NCBI GenBank assembly: GCA_947589545.1
Contig: CANQBA010000016.1
Span: 1 to 60,477, forward strand
DNA: 60,477 nucleotides
DNA from: an uncultured Oscillospiraceae bacterium
Lineage (GTDB): Bacteria; Bacillota; Clostridia; Oscillospirales; Oscillospiraceae
Direction: 5' to 3'
Shown here piece after piece: positions 1 to 30,516 of this stretch; the stretch's first letter is position 1; every line of letters begins with the position of its first letter. Made by a program: the position numbers and the translations under genes. Under the pieces are notes generated by a model. It was not told the DNA's origin and made no database searches. It saw nothing but the letters and a program-made list of their open reading frames with translations.

Positions 1-73
1 GTGGATTCGAACCACCGAAGGCATCGCCAGCAGATTTACAGTCTGTCCCCTTTGGCCACTCGGGAACTCCTCC
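1..73 (-). tRNA. tRNA-Tyr (GTA), partial at window edge, duplicate copy
   Basis: The minus strand reads a class II tRNA with anticodon GTA. It is the same gene as at 3612-3696, but its last 12 bases (3' acceptor strand and CCA) lie outside the window. The copy sits on the far side of the inserted element from the intact tRNA-Thr, so it probably lost its original upstream promoter. Whether it is still expressed cannot be judged here. Confidence 0.85.
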
Positions 74-85
74 GTATTCAGTTTC

Positions 86-132
86 TGGAGCTGGTGGACG
101 GATTCGAACCCCCGACCTGCTGATTACAAATC
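86..132 (-). pseudogene. 3' fragment of tRNA-Thr (TGT) left by integration
   Basis: This stretch matches the 3' 47 bases of the intact tRNA-Thr at 3709-3784: CCA end, T-arm, variable region and anticodon loop. It then diverges at 133. The 5' half is missing, so it cannot make a tRNA. It marks the left junction of the integrated element. Confidence 0.9.
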
Positions 133-245
133 GCTTTCGCTATAAAAATCCGGGCATTTCTAAGGCTTTCCGCCCCTTTTTCCTCCGAAATCAGCAGCTC
201 GTCCATGCTGTTTGCTCCACTGTTTCCACCCGCAAATATCGTCCA

Positions 246-306
246 GTGGGTCAACTTGTGGGTCAGCCCACCTTCCATGCGGAAAGTGGGCTGGACGATT
301 CGGATA
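246..306 (+). repeat. Left-arm repeat module (possible integrase arm sites)
   Basis: GTGGGTCA occurs at 246-253 and 258-265, then GACGATTCGGATA at 294-306. The same order, orientation and near-identical spacing occur at the other end of the element (3480-3539). Between the second GGGTCA and the 13-mer lies a small hairpin (GCCCAC/GTGGGC). Arm-type binding sites of lambda-like and Tn916-like integrases are arranged this way, so arm sites are the likely role; this is inference. Confidence 0.55.
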
Positions 307-462
307 ACTCCCCGAAGGAGGGGCAAAAAAGCGATTCGATGATTGCATAGTAACTCCAAGCAGCAGAAAAGTCAAGTATTCAAAAACTGGACCGCTATAA
401 GCAAAAAGAGCCTTTTTCCTCTGCCATACGCCTGTCGTATAAAAGAAAATTAATCTTCGTCA

Positions 463-807
463 TCAATTCTCCCGATTGGCTTTTTCCAACTCCCGGCGCA
501 AACGCGGAATATCCTCGGAAACAGTATCCCAAACGATCCGCAATTCTACACCGGAATATCCGTGGACGATTCGGTTCCGCATCCCGTAAATTTGCCGCCA
601 CGGGATTGCCGGAAAGGCCTCCTTAGCGGCATCGCTCAAGGAGTTTTTTGCCAGCTCCCCGATTGGCATCAGATTGAACACCGTGGCTTCCACGCGCATG
701 GGGTTGGCCTCAAAGTCGGAAAGGGAGGTGCAGTCTTTGCAATACCTCAACACCGCCTCCGTGTGTTCCTGAAGCTTACGCAGTACCCTGCGATCTTTAT
801 CGTCCAT
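463..807 (-). CDS. HEPN-domain toxin, HepT-like (DUF86)
   Basis: This 114-residue protein is the likely RNase toxin of a HEPN/MNT module. The family motif R-x4-H-x-Y is present at R77-H82-Y84 (RNRIVHGY), which is the predicted ribonuclease site and the tyrosine that the partner is known to AMPylate in studied homologues. The start at 807 is chosen because it lies just inside the end of the upstream nucleotidyltransferase gene (11-base overlap); a longer reading to 873 would run deep into that gene. The usual length for the family is 110-140 residues. In the element it may act in stabilisation or defence. Confidence 0.85.
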   Translation of the reverse strand: MDDKDRRVLRKLQEHTEAVLRYCKDCTSLSDFEANPMRVEATVFNLMPIGELAKNSLSDAAKEAFPAIPWRQIYGMRNRIVHGYSGVELRIVWDTVSEDIPRLRRELEKANREN

Positions 808-1096
808 AGATCGGCACCCCGCTTTCACGAATCTCACGGTCGATTCTGGAGCCGCTGTCGATTTGCCTGACATCCAACAGATCGACCGGGGTCTCCAGAG
901 ATGAGGCTACGTCCTCCAAAAGCCCAAAAAACGCCAGACCGCGAAGCCCGCTGTCCACAAGGATGTCCACATCACTGCGCGGCGTCGCGGTTCCTTTCGC
1001 GTACGAGCCGAAAAGCACGGCCTGTCTGACGCCGTTCCGCTCGAAAATAGGCGTCAGGAGCTCCTTCAGTTCAGGAACGGTATAAACCTTGCTCAT
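797..1096 (-). CDS. MNT-family nucleotidyltransferase antitoxin, MntA-like
   Basis: This 99-residue minimal nucleotidyltransferase carries G30-S31-x10-D42-x-D44, the family's metal and nucleotide binding motif, and a third acidic strand later (TPVDLLDV). In characterised HEPN/MNT pairs the MNT protein adds AMP to the toxin's tyrosine and neutralises it. It is first in the two-gene operon and overlaps the HEPN gene by 11 bases, so the two are translationally coupled. An AT-rich stretch at 1130-1170 upstream is the likely promoter region, but no clear -35/-10 pair is visible. Confidence 0.88.
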   Translation of the reverse strand: MSKVYTVPELKELLTPIFERNGVRQAVLFGSYAKGTATPRSDVDILVDSGLRGLAFFGLLEDVASSLETPVDLLDVRQIDSGSRIDREIRESGVPIYGR

Positions 1097-1429
1097 GCGG
1101 ACACTCCTCTCTTCGCAATGATGTCAACGATTGGCTACTTGCCTACGATATAGTATAGCATAAAAGCGTATAAAAAGCAACTCGCGATTGTGACAGTGAT
1201 GCTATCCAACAAATATTCCTCTGCCGTATGCCATCAACCACAGCCCCTCAAATTCTGCGGTGGACCCCCTGCAATTTTTGGAGGGGAATAGTATTAACAA
1301 GACGTAGAGCAACAAATATAAAGCCCTTCCAAACGGCCTTCAGCGCGCGGTTTCTCCGTTTTGCCGATACGGTTTCTCTCGACTTTTCCGCCCCTCTGCG
1401 GTATTGTGTGTTGCCAAGGAGTGATGAAA

Positions 1430-1705
1430 ATGGAGAATCTAATCAACGAACTCTATTACGGCAACATCCGCCCGGTCGAGCAAATAGGTGGGCTCACAGC
1501 GGAAGCTACGGCTATCATGAAGCGGGTGCATGAGAACGAGGACAAGCTGGAAGCAAGCCTCAACGAGCAGGAAAAGGAGCTGCTTCACACCAGCCAGAAT
1601 GACCGCCTTGATGTCACCTGTATCATCGAGGAAAAACGCTTCCGTGAAGCCTTTATCCTTGGGGCGAGATTGATGGTTGAAATCCTCACAGGAGGCCCTA
1701 AATAA
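1430..1705 (+). CDS. DUF6809-like small protein
   Basis: This 91-residue acidic, helical protein begins MENLINELYYGNIRP. It resembles small proteins of the DUF6809 type often found in Firmicutes mobile elements; the function is unknown. The start at 1430 is chosen over 1424 because AAGGAG at 1416-1421 sits 8 bases before 1430 but only 2 before 1424. It lies between the divergent toxin-antitoxin operon and the integrase and is probably element cargo or a regulator. The family assignment comes from memory of the motif. Confidence 0.7.
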   Translation: MENLINELYYGNIRPVEQIGGLTAEATAIMKRVHENEDKLEASLNEQEKELLHTSQNDRLDVTCIIEEKRFREAFILGARLMVEILTGGPK

Positions 1706-2236
1706 TTGCGGGAGTTCCCCGCAAAAGGCAAAATGCGTGGTTGGTTGTTTCCTGCCGGCAAGGTAGTTATACCATAAGGGGCTCAAACCGTCAACAGGCT
1801 TAACAACGCCGTGAGGGCGTTGTTGGGCCTGTACGCGATTTTATGGCAGAGGGTAAGAAACGTCACCTCCGGTGCAGTAAAAGGCCGTGTTGCGCGTTTG
1901 TGCGCGAAAAGAATTTTCCTCTCTGCACATAATTCTCCAGCTTCGGGAGGGCAACGCTGAAGCGAATTTCCGGCCCTTTTTCAAGGGAAAAAGGCCGTTC
2001 GATTGTCATGAGATAGTCATGAGTGCAGAGGAAAAACTCTCCCGTTTGGGAGAGGCAAGCATCGCATTTGTCTGTACACCGGGCAAGCCCGGCGTCCGCC
2101 AAATGCTTTTCCGGGCGGTAGCCCGGACCCACTGAGAGCAAAAAATTATTCGTTTGTACACAATTTTCCACTGGCTATTTGGCCGCAAGGATGGTATGTT
2201 GTGTGTTTGCCAAAAAGGCGAAAGGAGATGCACAAC
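1706..2236. other. 530-base region without a convincing gene inside the element
   Basis: No reading frame here has a good ribosome site and a recognisable product. A frame starting at 2019 (38 codons) is possible but unsupported. The region holds hairpins: a perfect 9-bp stem at 1802-1824 (AACAACGCC, loop GTGAG), a GGCC(N)TTTTTC/GAAAAAGGCC hairpin near 1971-1996 and TCCGGGC/GCCCGGA near 2110-2127. It also has an inverted pair, TTTTCCTCTCTGCAC with GTGCAGAGGAAAA. It could hold a small RNA, a decayed gene or a recombination-accessory site. Confidence 0.5.
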
Positions 2237-3385
2237 ATGGTAAAACGCAGAGCCAACGGCGAGGGGAATATACGAAAGAGGCCGGACGGGAGATGGGAAG
2301 GACGGTATGTTGCGGGGCATGATGAAAACGGGAAGGCTATCCGCAAGAACGTCCTCGGCAGGACCCAAGCGGAGGTCAAGGAGAAGCTGAAGCAGGCCAT
2401 CGGGGAATGTGCAGAGGTTGACGTTGAACGGGCTGCGGAATACACGGTGGCTGCATGGGTCAGAACATGGTACGAGACGTACTCGAAACCGCACGTCAGG
2501 GAGAGTACGCAGAGGTTCTACGAGGACTACATTGAACACCATGTCGTACCGAGGATTGGCAACATTAAGCTGGCGAAGCTGACAGGGCGGGACATACAGA
2601 AGATGTACAACGACGTCAAAGCTAAAGGGCGAATCAGGAAAAAGTCAGACGGGGATACAAGCCTGAGCGTCAGTTACGTTCGTGGCCTGCACATGATGCT
2701 CCACAACTGCCTTGATCGGGCGGTGAGGGAACGGTTGATTGTCCGAAACCCTACGGAGGACTGTATTGTTCCCAAGCTCGAAAAGAAGGAAATGCACATC
2801 CTGCACCCGGAAGACATCAGCGCATACCTCAGAGAAGCAGAGAAACGGGGCGTTCTGGCGATGTTCTTCCTTGAATTGACCACAGGACTCCGCAAAGGAG
2901 AACTGGTTGCCCTCCTCTGGTCTGATCTCGACGAGAAGTCAATGACGCTGAACGTCTGCAAACAGGCCGTGGGGGTCAAGGGCGGAGGGGTGAAGGTTAC
3001 CCGCCCCAAAACGGAAACCTCCATTCGAAAAATCTCTCTGTCGCAGGAGACTATCGACGTCCTGAAACGGGAGCATGAGAAACACCCAGAACTTGAAATC
3101 ATGTTCCCCTCCCCGAAGACACTGGGTATGTACTACCCCGACTCCATCACCGCCATCCACAACAAAATCCTGAAGTCAGCCGGCCTCCCGCACATTCGCC
3201 TGCACGATCTGAGACATACCTTCGCAACCCTTGCGCTGCAAAACGGTGTGGACGTGAAAACCGTCTCCAGCATCCTCGGCCACTACGACGCAGGTTTCAC
3301 GCTCCGCACCTACACCCACGTCACCACAAAGATGCAGGAAGAAGCCGCCGCAACCATAGGCAAACTGATTGGGGCAAATGTATGA
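2237..3385 (+). CDS. int: Site-specific tyrosine recombinase (integrase)
   Basis: This 382-residue integrase of the phage/Tn916 type inserts and excises the element. An AP2-like arm-binding region lies at about 1-55, a core-binding SAM-like domain at about 70-175 and the catalytic domain after 185. The catalytic set is complete: R219 (TGLRKGE), K258, H323-x2-R326 (HDLRHTF), H349 (LGHYD) and nucleophile Y359. The start at 2237 has AAAGGAG at 2221-2227; the upstream ATG at 2228 touches the ribosome site and is unlikely. It faces the right repeat, as expected for an integrase beside its attachment site. Confidence 0.95.
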   Translation: MVKRRANGEGNIRKRPDGRWEGRYVAGHDENGKAIRKNVLGRTQAEVKEKLKQAIGECAEVDVERAAEYTVAAWVRTWYETYSKPHVRESTQRFYEDYIEHHVVPRIGNIKLAKLTGRDIQKMYNDVKAKGRIRKKSDGDTSLSVSYVRGLHMMLHNCLDRAVRERLIVRNPTEDCIVPKLEKKEMHILHPEDISAYLREAEKRGVLAMFFLELTTGLRKGELVALLWSDLDEKSMTLNVCKQAVGVKGGGVKVTRPKTETSIRKISLSQETIDVLKREHEKHPELEIMFPSPKTLGMYYPDSITAIHNKILKSAGLPHIRLHDLRHTFATLALQNGVDVKTVSSILGHYDAGFTLRTYTHVTTKMQEEAAATIGKLIGANV

Positions 3386-3413
3386 GCAAAAAACCACCCC
3401 GCCATAACTAAAA

Positions 3414-3444
3414 AAGGCCGTGGGACGCCAAATCCCACGGCCTT
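3414..3444 (-). terminator. Rho-independent terminator, best on minus strand
   Basis: A perfect 12-bp stem (AAGGCCGTGGGA, loop CGCCAAA) is followed on the minus strand by a T-run. It lies 28 bases after the integrase stop. On the plus strand there is no T-run, so it mainly stops transcription entering from the tRNA side; it may also shape the integrase mRNA end. Confidence 0.65.
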
Positions 3445-3479
3445 GTGCTATCCTATTCTTTCCGCTCCGAAATCCCGTT

Positions 3480-3539
3480 GGGGTCAGAAAGGGGTCAGAG
3501 GCGGTGATAGGCAAAAATGCGACATAGACGATTCGGATA
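3480..3539 (+). repeat. Right-arm repeat module (possible integrase arm sites)
   Basis: GGGGTCAGA occurs at 3480-3488 and 3491-3499, then GACGATTCGGATA at 3527-3539. It matches the left-end module at 246-306 in order, orientation and spacing (second GGGTCA to 13-mer, 34-35 bases). It sits between the integrase stop and the tRNA terminator, where arm sites would be expected. Confidence 0.55.
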
Positions 3540-3573
3540 GCTGATTTCTTCATCTTTCCATTCCCAGAAATAA

Positions 3574-3611
3574 CAAAGATCCCGATTTTGTTCTCAAAAT
3601 CGGGATCTTTG
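3574..3611 (-). terminator. Terminator of the tRNA-Thr/tRNA-Tyr operon
   Basis: A perfect 17-bp stem (CAAAGATCCCGATTTTG with loop AGAA on the minus strand) directly abuts the CCA end of tRNA-Tyr. A short T-rich stretch follows. It belongs to the element side of the junction, so the element seems to supply the terminator for the rebuilt tRNA operon. Confidence 0.75.
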
Positions 3612-3696
3612 TGGTGGAGGAGGGTGGATTCGAACCACCGAAGGCATCGCCAGCAGATTTACAGTCTGTCCCCTTTGGCCACTCGGGAACTCCTCC
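3612..3696 (-). tRNA. tRNA-Tyr (GTA)
   Basis: This is a complete class II tRNA of 85 bases: acceptor stem GGAGGAG/CTCCTCC, discriminator A, encoded CCA, anticodon GTA and a long variable arm. It lies 12 bases downstream of tRNA-Thr on the same strand and shares its transcript. Confidence 0.95.
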
Positions 3697-3755
3697 ATAT
3701 TCAGTTTCTGGAGCTGGTGGACGGATTCGAACCCCCGACCTGCTGATTACAAATC
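3624..3755. repeat. Right copy of the element-flanking direct repeat (att region)
   Basis: This is the partner of 1-132, with one mismatch in the spacer between the two tRNAs. Here identity ends inside an intact tRNA-Thr gene, so this end keeps the chromosomal 5' half of the tRNA while the element provides the 3' half and the following tRNA-Tyr. Confidence 0.9.
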
Positions 3756-3784
3756 AGCTGCTCTACCAGCTGAGCTACACCAGC
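3709..3784 (-). tRNA. tRNA-Thr (TGT)
   Basis: This is a complete 76-base tRNA: acceptor GCTGGTG/CACCAGC, anticodon TGT, encoded CCA. It is the integration target of the element at 1-3755 and is first gene of a two-tRNA operon with tRNA-Tyr. Its 3' half lies in the repeated att region. Confidence 0.95.
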
Positions 3785-3867
3785 GTTCCGCTCATCAGCA
3801 AGTGATATGATATCAAAAACCGCGGCTTTTGTCAACAATAATTTTTCGTTTTTTGAACAATTTCTTC

Positions 3868-29073: not shown

Positions 29074-30516
29074 TCAGATGGCCAGGAAGAACTTCACCAG
29101 GAACAGGGCGGAGATGACGTAGGTGAGGACGGACACGTCCTTGGCCTTGCCGGTAAAGACCTTGATGACGGTGTAGGTGATGAGGCCCAGGCCGATGCCG
29201 TGGCCGATGGAGCCGGAGATGGGCATGGCCAGCAGCATGATAAACACGGGGGCGGCGATAGCCATGTCGTTGAAGTCGATGTTCTTGATGCCGCTGAGCA
29301 TCAGGATGCCCACATAGATGAGAGCGGCGGAGGTGGCGGCGGCGGGGATGATGGCGGCGATGGGGCTGATGAAGATGCAGGCCAGGAACAGGATGCCGGT
29401 GGTGAGAGCGGTGAGGCCGGTGCGGCCGCCGGCCTCCACGCCGGAGGCGGACTCCACGAAGGTGGTGACGGTGGAGGTGCCGGTGCAGGCGCCCACCACG
29501 GTACCCACGGCGTCGGAGAGCAGCGTCTCACGCATCTTGGGCATGTTGCCGTTCTTGTCGGTCATCCCGGCGCGGTTGGCGGTGGCGAGAACGGTGCCGA
29601 TGGTGTCGAACATATCGATGATGCAGAAGGTCACCACCAGCAGAATGACGGTGCCCCAGCCGACCTTGGCGAGGGTGGCGAAATCAAACTTGAAGAGGGT
29701 GGTCTTGGCCATATCGCCGAAGGGGGGCAGCCAGTTGGCGGTCTTGAGGCTCGCGAAGGGGTTCTGCTTCAGGAAAAGGGCCTGTCCCGCCCAGTTGAGG
29801 ACGGAAGCGCCCAGCATACCCACCAGCACCGCGCCCTTCATCTTGTAGTGGGCCAGAACGATGATGAGGAAGAGGCCGATGAACATGGTGACCACGGTGA
29901 GAACCATGGCGGGCCAGTAATCGCCCAGGGCGTCCTTGGCGGAGCTGGCGGACAGCGCGCCGAAGAAGTCACGCATGACGTAATTCTCGCTGGAGGCGCC
30001 CACGCCGGCGTTGGAGCCGAAGCCGATGTTCATCAGCATCAGGCCGATGCCGGGGCCGATGCCCAGGCGGACGCCGAGAGGAATAGCCTCCACGATCTTC
30101 TGGCGGATATTGAAGACGGAGAGGAGCACGAACACGATACCTTCAACGAGGATGATGCACAGGCCCGCCTGAAGTCCGGCCAGCATGGTGCATCCGGCTG
30201 CGCCGGCGATCTGGGCGATGACAACGGCGAAATAGCTGTTGAGGCCCATGCCGGGGGCCAGCGCGAAGGGCTTGTTTGCCAGGAACGCCATGCAGAACAT
30301 AGCCACGGCGGAGGCCAGGCAGGTGGCCATAAAGACGCCGTTCCACGCCGCGAAGCCGTCGTCACCGAAGCCCCCGAAAGCGCCCTGACCGAAGCCGACG
30401 ATCAGGTTGGGGTTCAGCGCGATGATGTACGCCATCGTCATGAAGGTAGTAAGACCGGCTACGATCTCGGTGCGGACGGTGGTGCCGTTTTGCTTGAGCT
30501 TGAAGATTTTCTCCAT
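29074..30516 (-). CDS. NCS2 purine permease (AzgA/PbuG type)
   Basis: This 480-residue protein has 12-14 membrane segments and probably takes up adenine, hypoxanthine or guanine with protons. The family motif FMTMAYIIALNPNLI lies at about residues 25-39, and GIGPGIGLMLMNIGFGSNAGVG in the middle is typical of AzgA-like permeases. ATG 30516 has an AGGAGGGT site; an extension to 30585 lacks one. It is divergent from a phosphoribosyltransferase gene, in keeping with purine salvage. Confidence 0.92.
   Translation of the reverse strand: MEKIFKLKQNGTTVRTEIVAGLTTFMTMAYIIALNPNLIVGFGQGAFGGFGDDGFAAWNGVFMATCLASAVAMFCMAFLANKPFALAPGMGLNSYFAVVIAQIAGAAGCTMLAGLQAGLCIILVEGIVFVLLSVFNIRQKIVEAIPLGVRLGIGPGIGLMLMNIGFGSNAGVGASSENYVMRDFFGALSASSAKDALGDYWPAMVLTVVTMFIGLFLIIVLAHYKMKGAVLVGMLGASVLNWAGQALFLKQNPFASLKTANWLPPFGDMAKTTLFKFDFATLAKVGWGTVILLVVTFCIIDMFDTIGTVLATANRAGMTDKNGNMPKMRETLLSDAVGTVVGACTGTSTVTTFVESASGVEAGGRTGLTALTTGILFLACIFISPIAAIIPAAATSAALIYVGILMLSGIKNIDFNDMAIAAPVFIMLLAMPISGSIGHGIGLGLITYTVIKVFTGKAKDVSVLTYVISALFLVKFFLAI

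Follow-up and report, generated by a model that had tools for sequence, protein, structure and literature searches.

A putative integrative element at tRNA-Thr carries the next tRNA gene and the terminator of its target operon in an uncultured Oscillospiraceae bacterium

The window analysed here is the entire contig CANQBA010000016.1 (60,477 nucleotides (nt); C16 of genome G000, an assembly of 3.83 Mb in 148 contigs, GCA_947589545.1) of an uncultured Oscillospiraceae bacterium, and its base 1 is a contig end. At this end lies a 3.6-kb element between two copies of a direct repeat at a tRNA operon. On the minus strand, the operon runs from a promoter (3835-3807) through tRNA-Thr(TGT) and tRNA-Tyr to a terminator (3611-3574). 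ARAGORN called tRNA-Tyr at 3612-3696(-) and tRNA-Thr(TGT) at 3709-3784(-); Rfam returned three tRNA matches and, across the palindrome of the terminator, a single miRNA match below gathering score. The two repeat copies (1-132 and 3624-3755) are 99.24% identical (E 5.5e-62) and extend from the anticodon stem-loop of tRNA-Thr across the spacer into tRNA-Tyr, the left copy holding 47 nt of Thr, the 12-nt spacer and Tyr positions 1-73. An earlier sequence-only reading had described such a repeat, of 132 bp or more, and had proposed that one spacer base tells the copies apart. Both points hold, as 74G/3697A is the single mismatch in the repeat, but this base is no guide to the ancestral copy, since both forms occur in other species. 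Between the repeat copies, the element encodes a tyrosine integrase, a HepT-like/MNT pair and a DUF6809 protein. The target is rebuilt: tRNA-Thr is complete at 3709-3784, and its 3' part is repeated directly at both element ends. The features are listed below, with element and host parts assigned as we read them.

1 to 73, minus strand: tRNA-Tyr, displaced copy (positions 1-73; the 3' end lies past the contig end, and no complete tRNA-Thr stands in front)
74 to 85, minus strand: spacer of the displaced copy, 74 G versus 3697 A
86 to 132, minus strand: tRNA-Thr 3' part, displaced copy; anticodon at 126-128; identity with 3709-3755 ends at 132
133 to 310, no strand: left end conserved in the element family
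246 to 265, plus strand: GTGGGTCA in direct repeat, two copies at a distance of 12 bp; candidate arm-type integrase sites of the left end
264 to 293, minus strand: 13-bp hairpin with paired changes between copies (single-copy folds compared by eye)
347 to 375, minus strand: promoter-like TTGACT-17-TACTAT (9/12), facing out of the element towards the displaced tail (Thr 3' part with Tyr)
463 to 873, minus strand: HepT-like protein (HEPN ribonuclease toxin family; Pfam PF01934, 78.7 bits, cut-off 23.5)
797 to 1096, minus strand: MNT-type nucleotidyltransferase (antitoxin family; Pfam PF18765 and PF01909 above cut-off)
1430 to 1705, plus strand: DUF6809 protein, a stretch also recurring in sister elements
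2237 to 3385, plus strand: tyrosine integrase, 382 amino acids (Pfam PF00589, PF14659)
3480 to 3497, plus strand: GGGGTCA in two copies, which lie 269 and 258 bp from the core; candidate arm-type sites of the right end
3574 to 3611, minus strand: tRNA operon terminator, 17-bp stem, element-borne
3612 to 3696, minus strand: tRNA-Tyr (GTA), element-borne, promoter-proximal
3697 to 3708, minus strand: spacer, element-borne
3709 to 3784, minus strand: complete tRNA-Thr (TGT) with its anticodon at 3749-3751; the 5' part belongs to the host, whereas everything from the anticodon loop to the 3' end is element-borne
3807 to 3835, minus strand: host promoter of the tRNA operon, TTGACA-17-TATCAT (11/12 consensus bases; a like pattern lies upstream in relatives)

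Very probably, the element inserts in tRNA-Thr(TGT) and carries the 3' part of this gene, tRNA-Tyr and the terminator, which keeps the two-gene operon whole. In the proposed mechanism, the element would enter the Thr-Tyr operon at its first gene, tRNA-Thr(TGT), with its own tyrosine integrase acting at the anticodon loop. The attachment segment would run past the tRNA-Thr 3' end to take in the spacer, the whole tRNA-Tyr and the terminator. After insertion, the host promoter and the Thr 5' part would read into the Thr 3' part, Tyr and terminator of the element, while the previous tail, consisting of a Thr 3' part and Tyr, would be pushed to the far element end. Because the host promoter would read the element-borne tail, the operon would stay whole. 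An insertion lacking Tyr would presumably be harmful, and the extra Tyr would then meet a functional need.

The distribution of the carried tail among target sites bears directly on this proposal. In the examined loci, with tRNA-Thr recognized by a pattern allowing up to four substitutions, tRNA-Tyr follows Thr(TGT) in 33/33 distinct copies for which the sequence reaches far enough, 19 of them complete genes and 14 halves; one further half stops at a contig end and stands outside this count. The same integrase family also occupies a single-gene Thr(CGT) site, where tRNA-Tyr follows none of 36 copies and sister elements restore the Thr 3' half alone; C49 is a case of three integrases in tandem. 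Hence, the extent of the carried tail matches the transcription unit at the target site, and the Thr(CGT) site, without a carried Tyr, acts as a natural control. These counts, together with genome G019 described below, support the earlier proposal that the element supplies a second tRNA-Tyr and a terminator with a 17-bp stem, leaving the host operon whole.

The examined loci comprise 35 distinct left junctions and 27 complete genes. Agreement between left junctions and complete genes ends at the anticodon loop, and the family left end is found there in 28/35; the remaining seven show a single repeat, foreign sequence or a partial gene (L113). In the window, the repeat identity ends in the anticodon stem, at tRNA position 30. 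The copy at C53:4302 combines the Thr(CGT) base at position 34 with a Thr(TGT)/Tyr 3' part, which places the switch between positions 34 and 42 and indicates that the 5' half keeps the wobble base. Segmental or tandem duplication of the operon, with no site-specific integration, can also generate directly repeated tRNA genes, and base 1 of the window is a contig end. We consider such a duplication highly improbable, because the element left end and its paired repeats begin at the anticodon loop in 28/35 junctions, the duplicated part in those copies lacks the Thr 5' half and the promoter, and the element of G019 is contiguous. Moreover, the repeat does not extend far, as the sequence-only reading had expected of a segmental duplication: one side stops at tRNA position 30 and, in G019, the other stops just past the terminator.

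G019 provides a second, distant case. Its element, whose integrase is 65% identical, spans 22.2 kb contiguous on one contig and carries genes for a MobL relaxase, type I restriction and a GmrSD-type nuclease. The repeat is 371 bp long (99.5% identity), runs from the anticodon loop of Thr to just past the terminator and contains the Thr 3' part, a 189-nt spacer, the whole Tyr and a hairpin. In G030:C48 (L098), two elements lie in tandem within one contig. These loci also bear on the idea of an assembly or binning artefact at the repeat, to which the 148 contigs of the window's genome and the ends of both C45 and C16 inside tRNA-Tyr might point. The same layout inside the single contigs G030:C48, G019:C21 and C53 makes an artefact extremely improbable. 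In G022 (L100), one element end retains a Tyr stub of about 9 bases, as judged by eye. G027:C62 was considered as a counter-example, a Thr(TGT) without Tyr, and rejected, as this contig stops with the very last base of Thr.

Alternatively, Tyr could be passenger homology acquired by mis-excision with flanking host DNA, its identity being kept by an aid to pairing or by drift, and the displaced Tyr being expressed from the outward promoter. In this sense, a site of the TTGACT-17-TACTAT type faces the displaced tail in 24/35 left junctions, and the displaced Tyr copies in the window's genome differ from the active copy by 1, 2, 1 and 0 bases, that is, by 0-1 base in three of four. However, the outward site is also found at CGT sites (15/20, versus 9/15 at TGT sites); as it is kept there with no Tyr beyond, it need not serve Tyr. 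Furthermore, none of the 33 TGT copies lacks Tyr, the terminator stems are maintained by paired changes, and the right ends with Tyr are spread over separate integrase branches. Taken together, we judge a passenger Tyr distinctly unlikely.

The terminator comparison used 12 distinct sequences picked by eye as element type, native and other terminators being excluded. Across the 17-pair stem, 93.6% of cells are paired (0/500 shuffles as high) and 19 cells are changed on both sides versus a shuffled mean of 6.1 (0/500), with five pairs changed on both sides (16/500); further pair types are not above shuffles (137/500), and relatedness alone can raise all these scores. We also compared nine operons. 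Downstream of eight, a family right end or its remnant is recognizable by eye; the ninth, in G025, has none. Mean identity is 66% over the 60 bases upstream (ungapped), 96% in the spacer and 99.7% in Tyr. Low identity upstream and high identity in the tail would fit tails spreading with elements; tRNA conservation and upstream indels also contribute to this pattern.

The integrase tree was built from 59/72 records, after dropping duplicates, copies with stops and those below 55% identity. On this tree, the Tyr label needs seven changes, at least three of them forced by well-supported branches, in a tree whose bootstrap has not settled and in which G019 sits on a long branch. Right ends with Tyr thus probably do not go back to a single event, be it of origin or of exchange. 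Distant family members target Thr(GGT) (three) or Val(CAC) (four), and the break lies again at the anticodon loop. The integrases at L135, L137, L140 and L143, from other Clostridia, are 57-59% identical and sit at the anticodon loop of tRNA-Val(CAC), which at L135 and L137 closes a Met-Glu-Val cluster.

The element ends carry further candidate integrase sites. Left ends show a GKGGGTCA pair near +118 and +130, both members being present in 28/35 distinct left junctions, and the window holds two paired GGGTCA against 0.02 expected. The right-end pairs lie at 133-134/123-124 bp in 17/23 CGT elements (one of these with a single site), at 124/113-114 in 5/23 and at 172/162 in 1/23. In close Tyr elements, the pair lies at 268-270/258-259 bp in 9/9 with a readable core, a tenth being interrupted by a contig end and therefore outside the count; in G019 it lies at 379/367 bp. 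The paired repeats may represent arm-type integrase sites. The right arm is accordingly about twice as long in Tyr elements (258-270 bp) as in 22/23 CGT right ends (113-134 bp), so that the presence of the Tyr tail goes with a roughly doubled right arm and an unmoved left arm. A rough look at helical phasing of the arm distances (113-134, 162-172, 258-270 and 367-379) found no single turn length that fitted, and we discarded the idea. The left-end hairpin (264-293) and the outward site (347-375) could possibly constitute a small RNA or a regulator of the attachment site.

Within the window's genome, six tRNA-Tyr matches were counted as five loci, one of them split across C45 and C16. A seventh pattern match, in C12, was not called as a tRNA, and a further class of tRNA-Tyr sequence was sought with two patterns only. 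All five loci adjoin a Thr 3' part, and tRNA-Tyr 3612-3696 is the only one preceded by a complete Thr gene and promoter. The promoter-linked tRNA-Tyr of the host appears, then, to be element-borne. Apart from C16, the end of C45 is the sole contig end that cuts tRNA-Tyr in this genome, and it shares an exact 61-base overlap with the end of C16. Beyond the overlap, C45 leads into a terminator and then an integrase of the same family (94%), and hence the left neighbour of C16 is probably a second element and not empty chromosome. The sequence-only reading had looked to the DNA left of base 1 for the extent of the repeat; if C45 and C16 join as their overlap suggests, the two elements probably form a tandem array. 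One may speculate further that the working tRNA-Tyr is itself mobile: serial insertions would replace it, displaced copies would start decaying, element loss would be lethal through addiction to an essential tRNA, and the outward left-end promoter would be an earlier, weaker safeguard. We offer this scenario tentatively and rather doubt it.

To place these data within the genus, we searched 34 genomes for the integrase (E 1e-100 or better) and for tRNA-Tyr (E 1e-12). The integrase is present in 21/34 and absent at this threshold in 13/34. The 13 integrase-free genomes hold one tRNA-Tyr in eight cases, none in five and two or more in no case, whereas the 21 integrase-bearing ones hold two or more in seven, one in ten and none in four. 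Relatives without the element that carry two tRNA-Tyr genes, which would speak for a pre-existing pair, are thus not seen in the genus. The single tRNA-Tyr expected of such relatives is found in these eight, but the expected empty site is not: comparing and searching the flanks of C16, C23 and G019, we found no empty site with both flanks in the genus. The arsR/sdpI DNA upstream is shared with G022, whose contig begins inside Thr. For C23, a status as old chromosome is not supported, its left flank, which contains methylase-like open reading frames (ORFs) by eye, being without a DNA match at E 1e-20 elsewhere in the genus (33 genomes).

Several points weigh against the proposed operon-restoring insertion. 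We saw no circular form or excised site, and no pair of genomes with and without the element sharing both flanks was found in the genus. The assemblies are mostly fragmented, with many contigs broken at the repeat, so that the tRNA-Tyr counts are lower bounds; the nine genomes with no Tyr at threshold (5/13 and 4/21) fall under this caution. G019 has another intact Thr(TGT) gene, also with a promoter, at C6:1-127 (L089); the contig breaks off at the 3' end of this gene, which could belong to a second operon or lie on a stray contig. Finally, the outward promoter-like site might express the displaced Tyr, and a spare copy would then be less necessary.

Regarding the class of the element, its integrase scores 78.6 bits against PF00589 (cut-off 27.1), and its stop codon lies 226 bases from tRNA-Tyr. 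The same genome holds 10 further full-length integrase copies (88-94% identity, one with an internal stop), and close integrase relatives come mostly from Oscillospiraceae assemblies named 'Lapin', a name that points to the rabbit gut as the probable habitat. The HepT and MntA matches in NCBIfam (33.3 and 49.5 bits) are each under the cut-off of 60, although the Pfam matches are above theirs. The remaining ORFs of the element are all below 150 amino acids, save one antisense to the integrase region. No relaxase was found among the four ORFs searched, of which the integrase alone matches PHROGs; a MobL relaxase adjoins the integrase in C45 and G019. A phage origin was rejected: matches came from 2,769 phage records, but just two of these reach 60-80% identity and the others are below 60%. 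Among 632 plasmid records with a match, one reaches 60-80% identity, 7.4 kb from the nearest tRNA, and in viral contigs eight stretches fit a pattern, none encoding a relative.

The cargo found between sister-element ends (L011 in C23, L013/L014 in C45, L009 in C53 and L012 in C49) is varied and partly defence-like, including Abi_2, DarT with an ADP-ribosylglycohydrolase, a TOTE primase-helicase, a MobL relaxase, an M48 peptidase and an AAA ATPase (Pfam search of 19 proteins, seven without a match). In C45, the minus strand of 29683-30456, between integrase and element end, resembles a Cu-Zn superoxide dismutase by eye. A second repeat family seems to abut the exact CCA 3' end of tRNAs (C80, C28, C23:31290, C127, C53:4299 and C49:3312) and to part the integrase and terminator of the first family from its tRNA. 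As a guess, it perhaps consists of elements with paired integrases (C45:10052/11206, C60 and C68).

The sequence-only reading knew of no element that restores the next tRNA too. Phage HP1, reportedly described by Hauser and Scocca in 1990 and with a host cluster that we take to be Leu-Lys, offers a precedent. In the first 4 kb of its record (U24159), the annotated attP (251-694) contains a complete tRNA-Lys (356-431) and, ahead of it, the 3' half of a Leu-type tRNA, recognized by eye and without an ARAGORN call. HP1 therefore resembles the window element in having half of the target tRNA and the whole next tRNA inside the attachment segment, and novelty is partial. In contrast, HP1 is a complete phage, whereas the window element has the integrase as its only phage-type gene, small cargo, tandem arrays and five Tyr loci in one genome. 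As in tRNA-targeted islands and integrative and mobilizable elements, a tyrosine integrase, anticodon-loop exchange, a restored 3' part and a kept host promoter are found; unlike in those, the restored part spans a second gene and a terminator. In mycobacteriophage tRNA-dependent lysogeny, an element-borne tRNA makes up for the tRNA lost on integration; according to the portions consulted, the target is left unrestored and its role passes to a separate tRNA of that isotype (PMC10865867), whereas the window element restores its target and carries, in line with it, a different tRNA, the downstream one. The Dehalococcoides ssrA islands are likewise tandem, with attachment repeats at one RNA gene; the parts of that paper available to us describe 20-bp repeats of a single gene end, the integrase DsiB and a tRNA-like locus inside islands, with no second RNA gene restored in line (PMC3146451). 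Tycheposons share the tRNA border and the tyrosine recombinase, and no restored tRNA operon tail is described in the sections consulted (PMC10872708). A search of titles and abstracts, which covers subscription papers thinly and is no proof of absence, found no two-gene tRNA tail restored by an element. So far as searched, the non-phage family, the parallel one- and two-gene tails, the five Tyr loci in one genome and the apparently element-borne, promoter-linked tRNA-Tyr may be new.

The general rule, as given in the part of the source consulted, is that tRNA-targeted elements restore the 3' part of the tRNA (PMC8371274). The elements reported here would extend this rule, in that restoration covers a second tRNA and a terminator as well, up to where the transcription unit ends. 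Mycobacteriophage tRNA-dependent lysogeny solves the same problem in a different way. As a single integrase family occupies both one-gene and two-gene sites, it becomes testable what a cut tRNA operon costs and how far the recombination complex tolerates a right arm of about double length.

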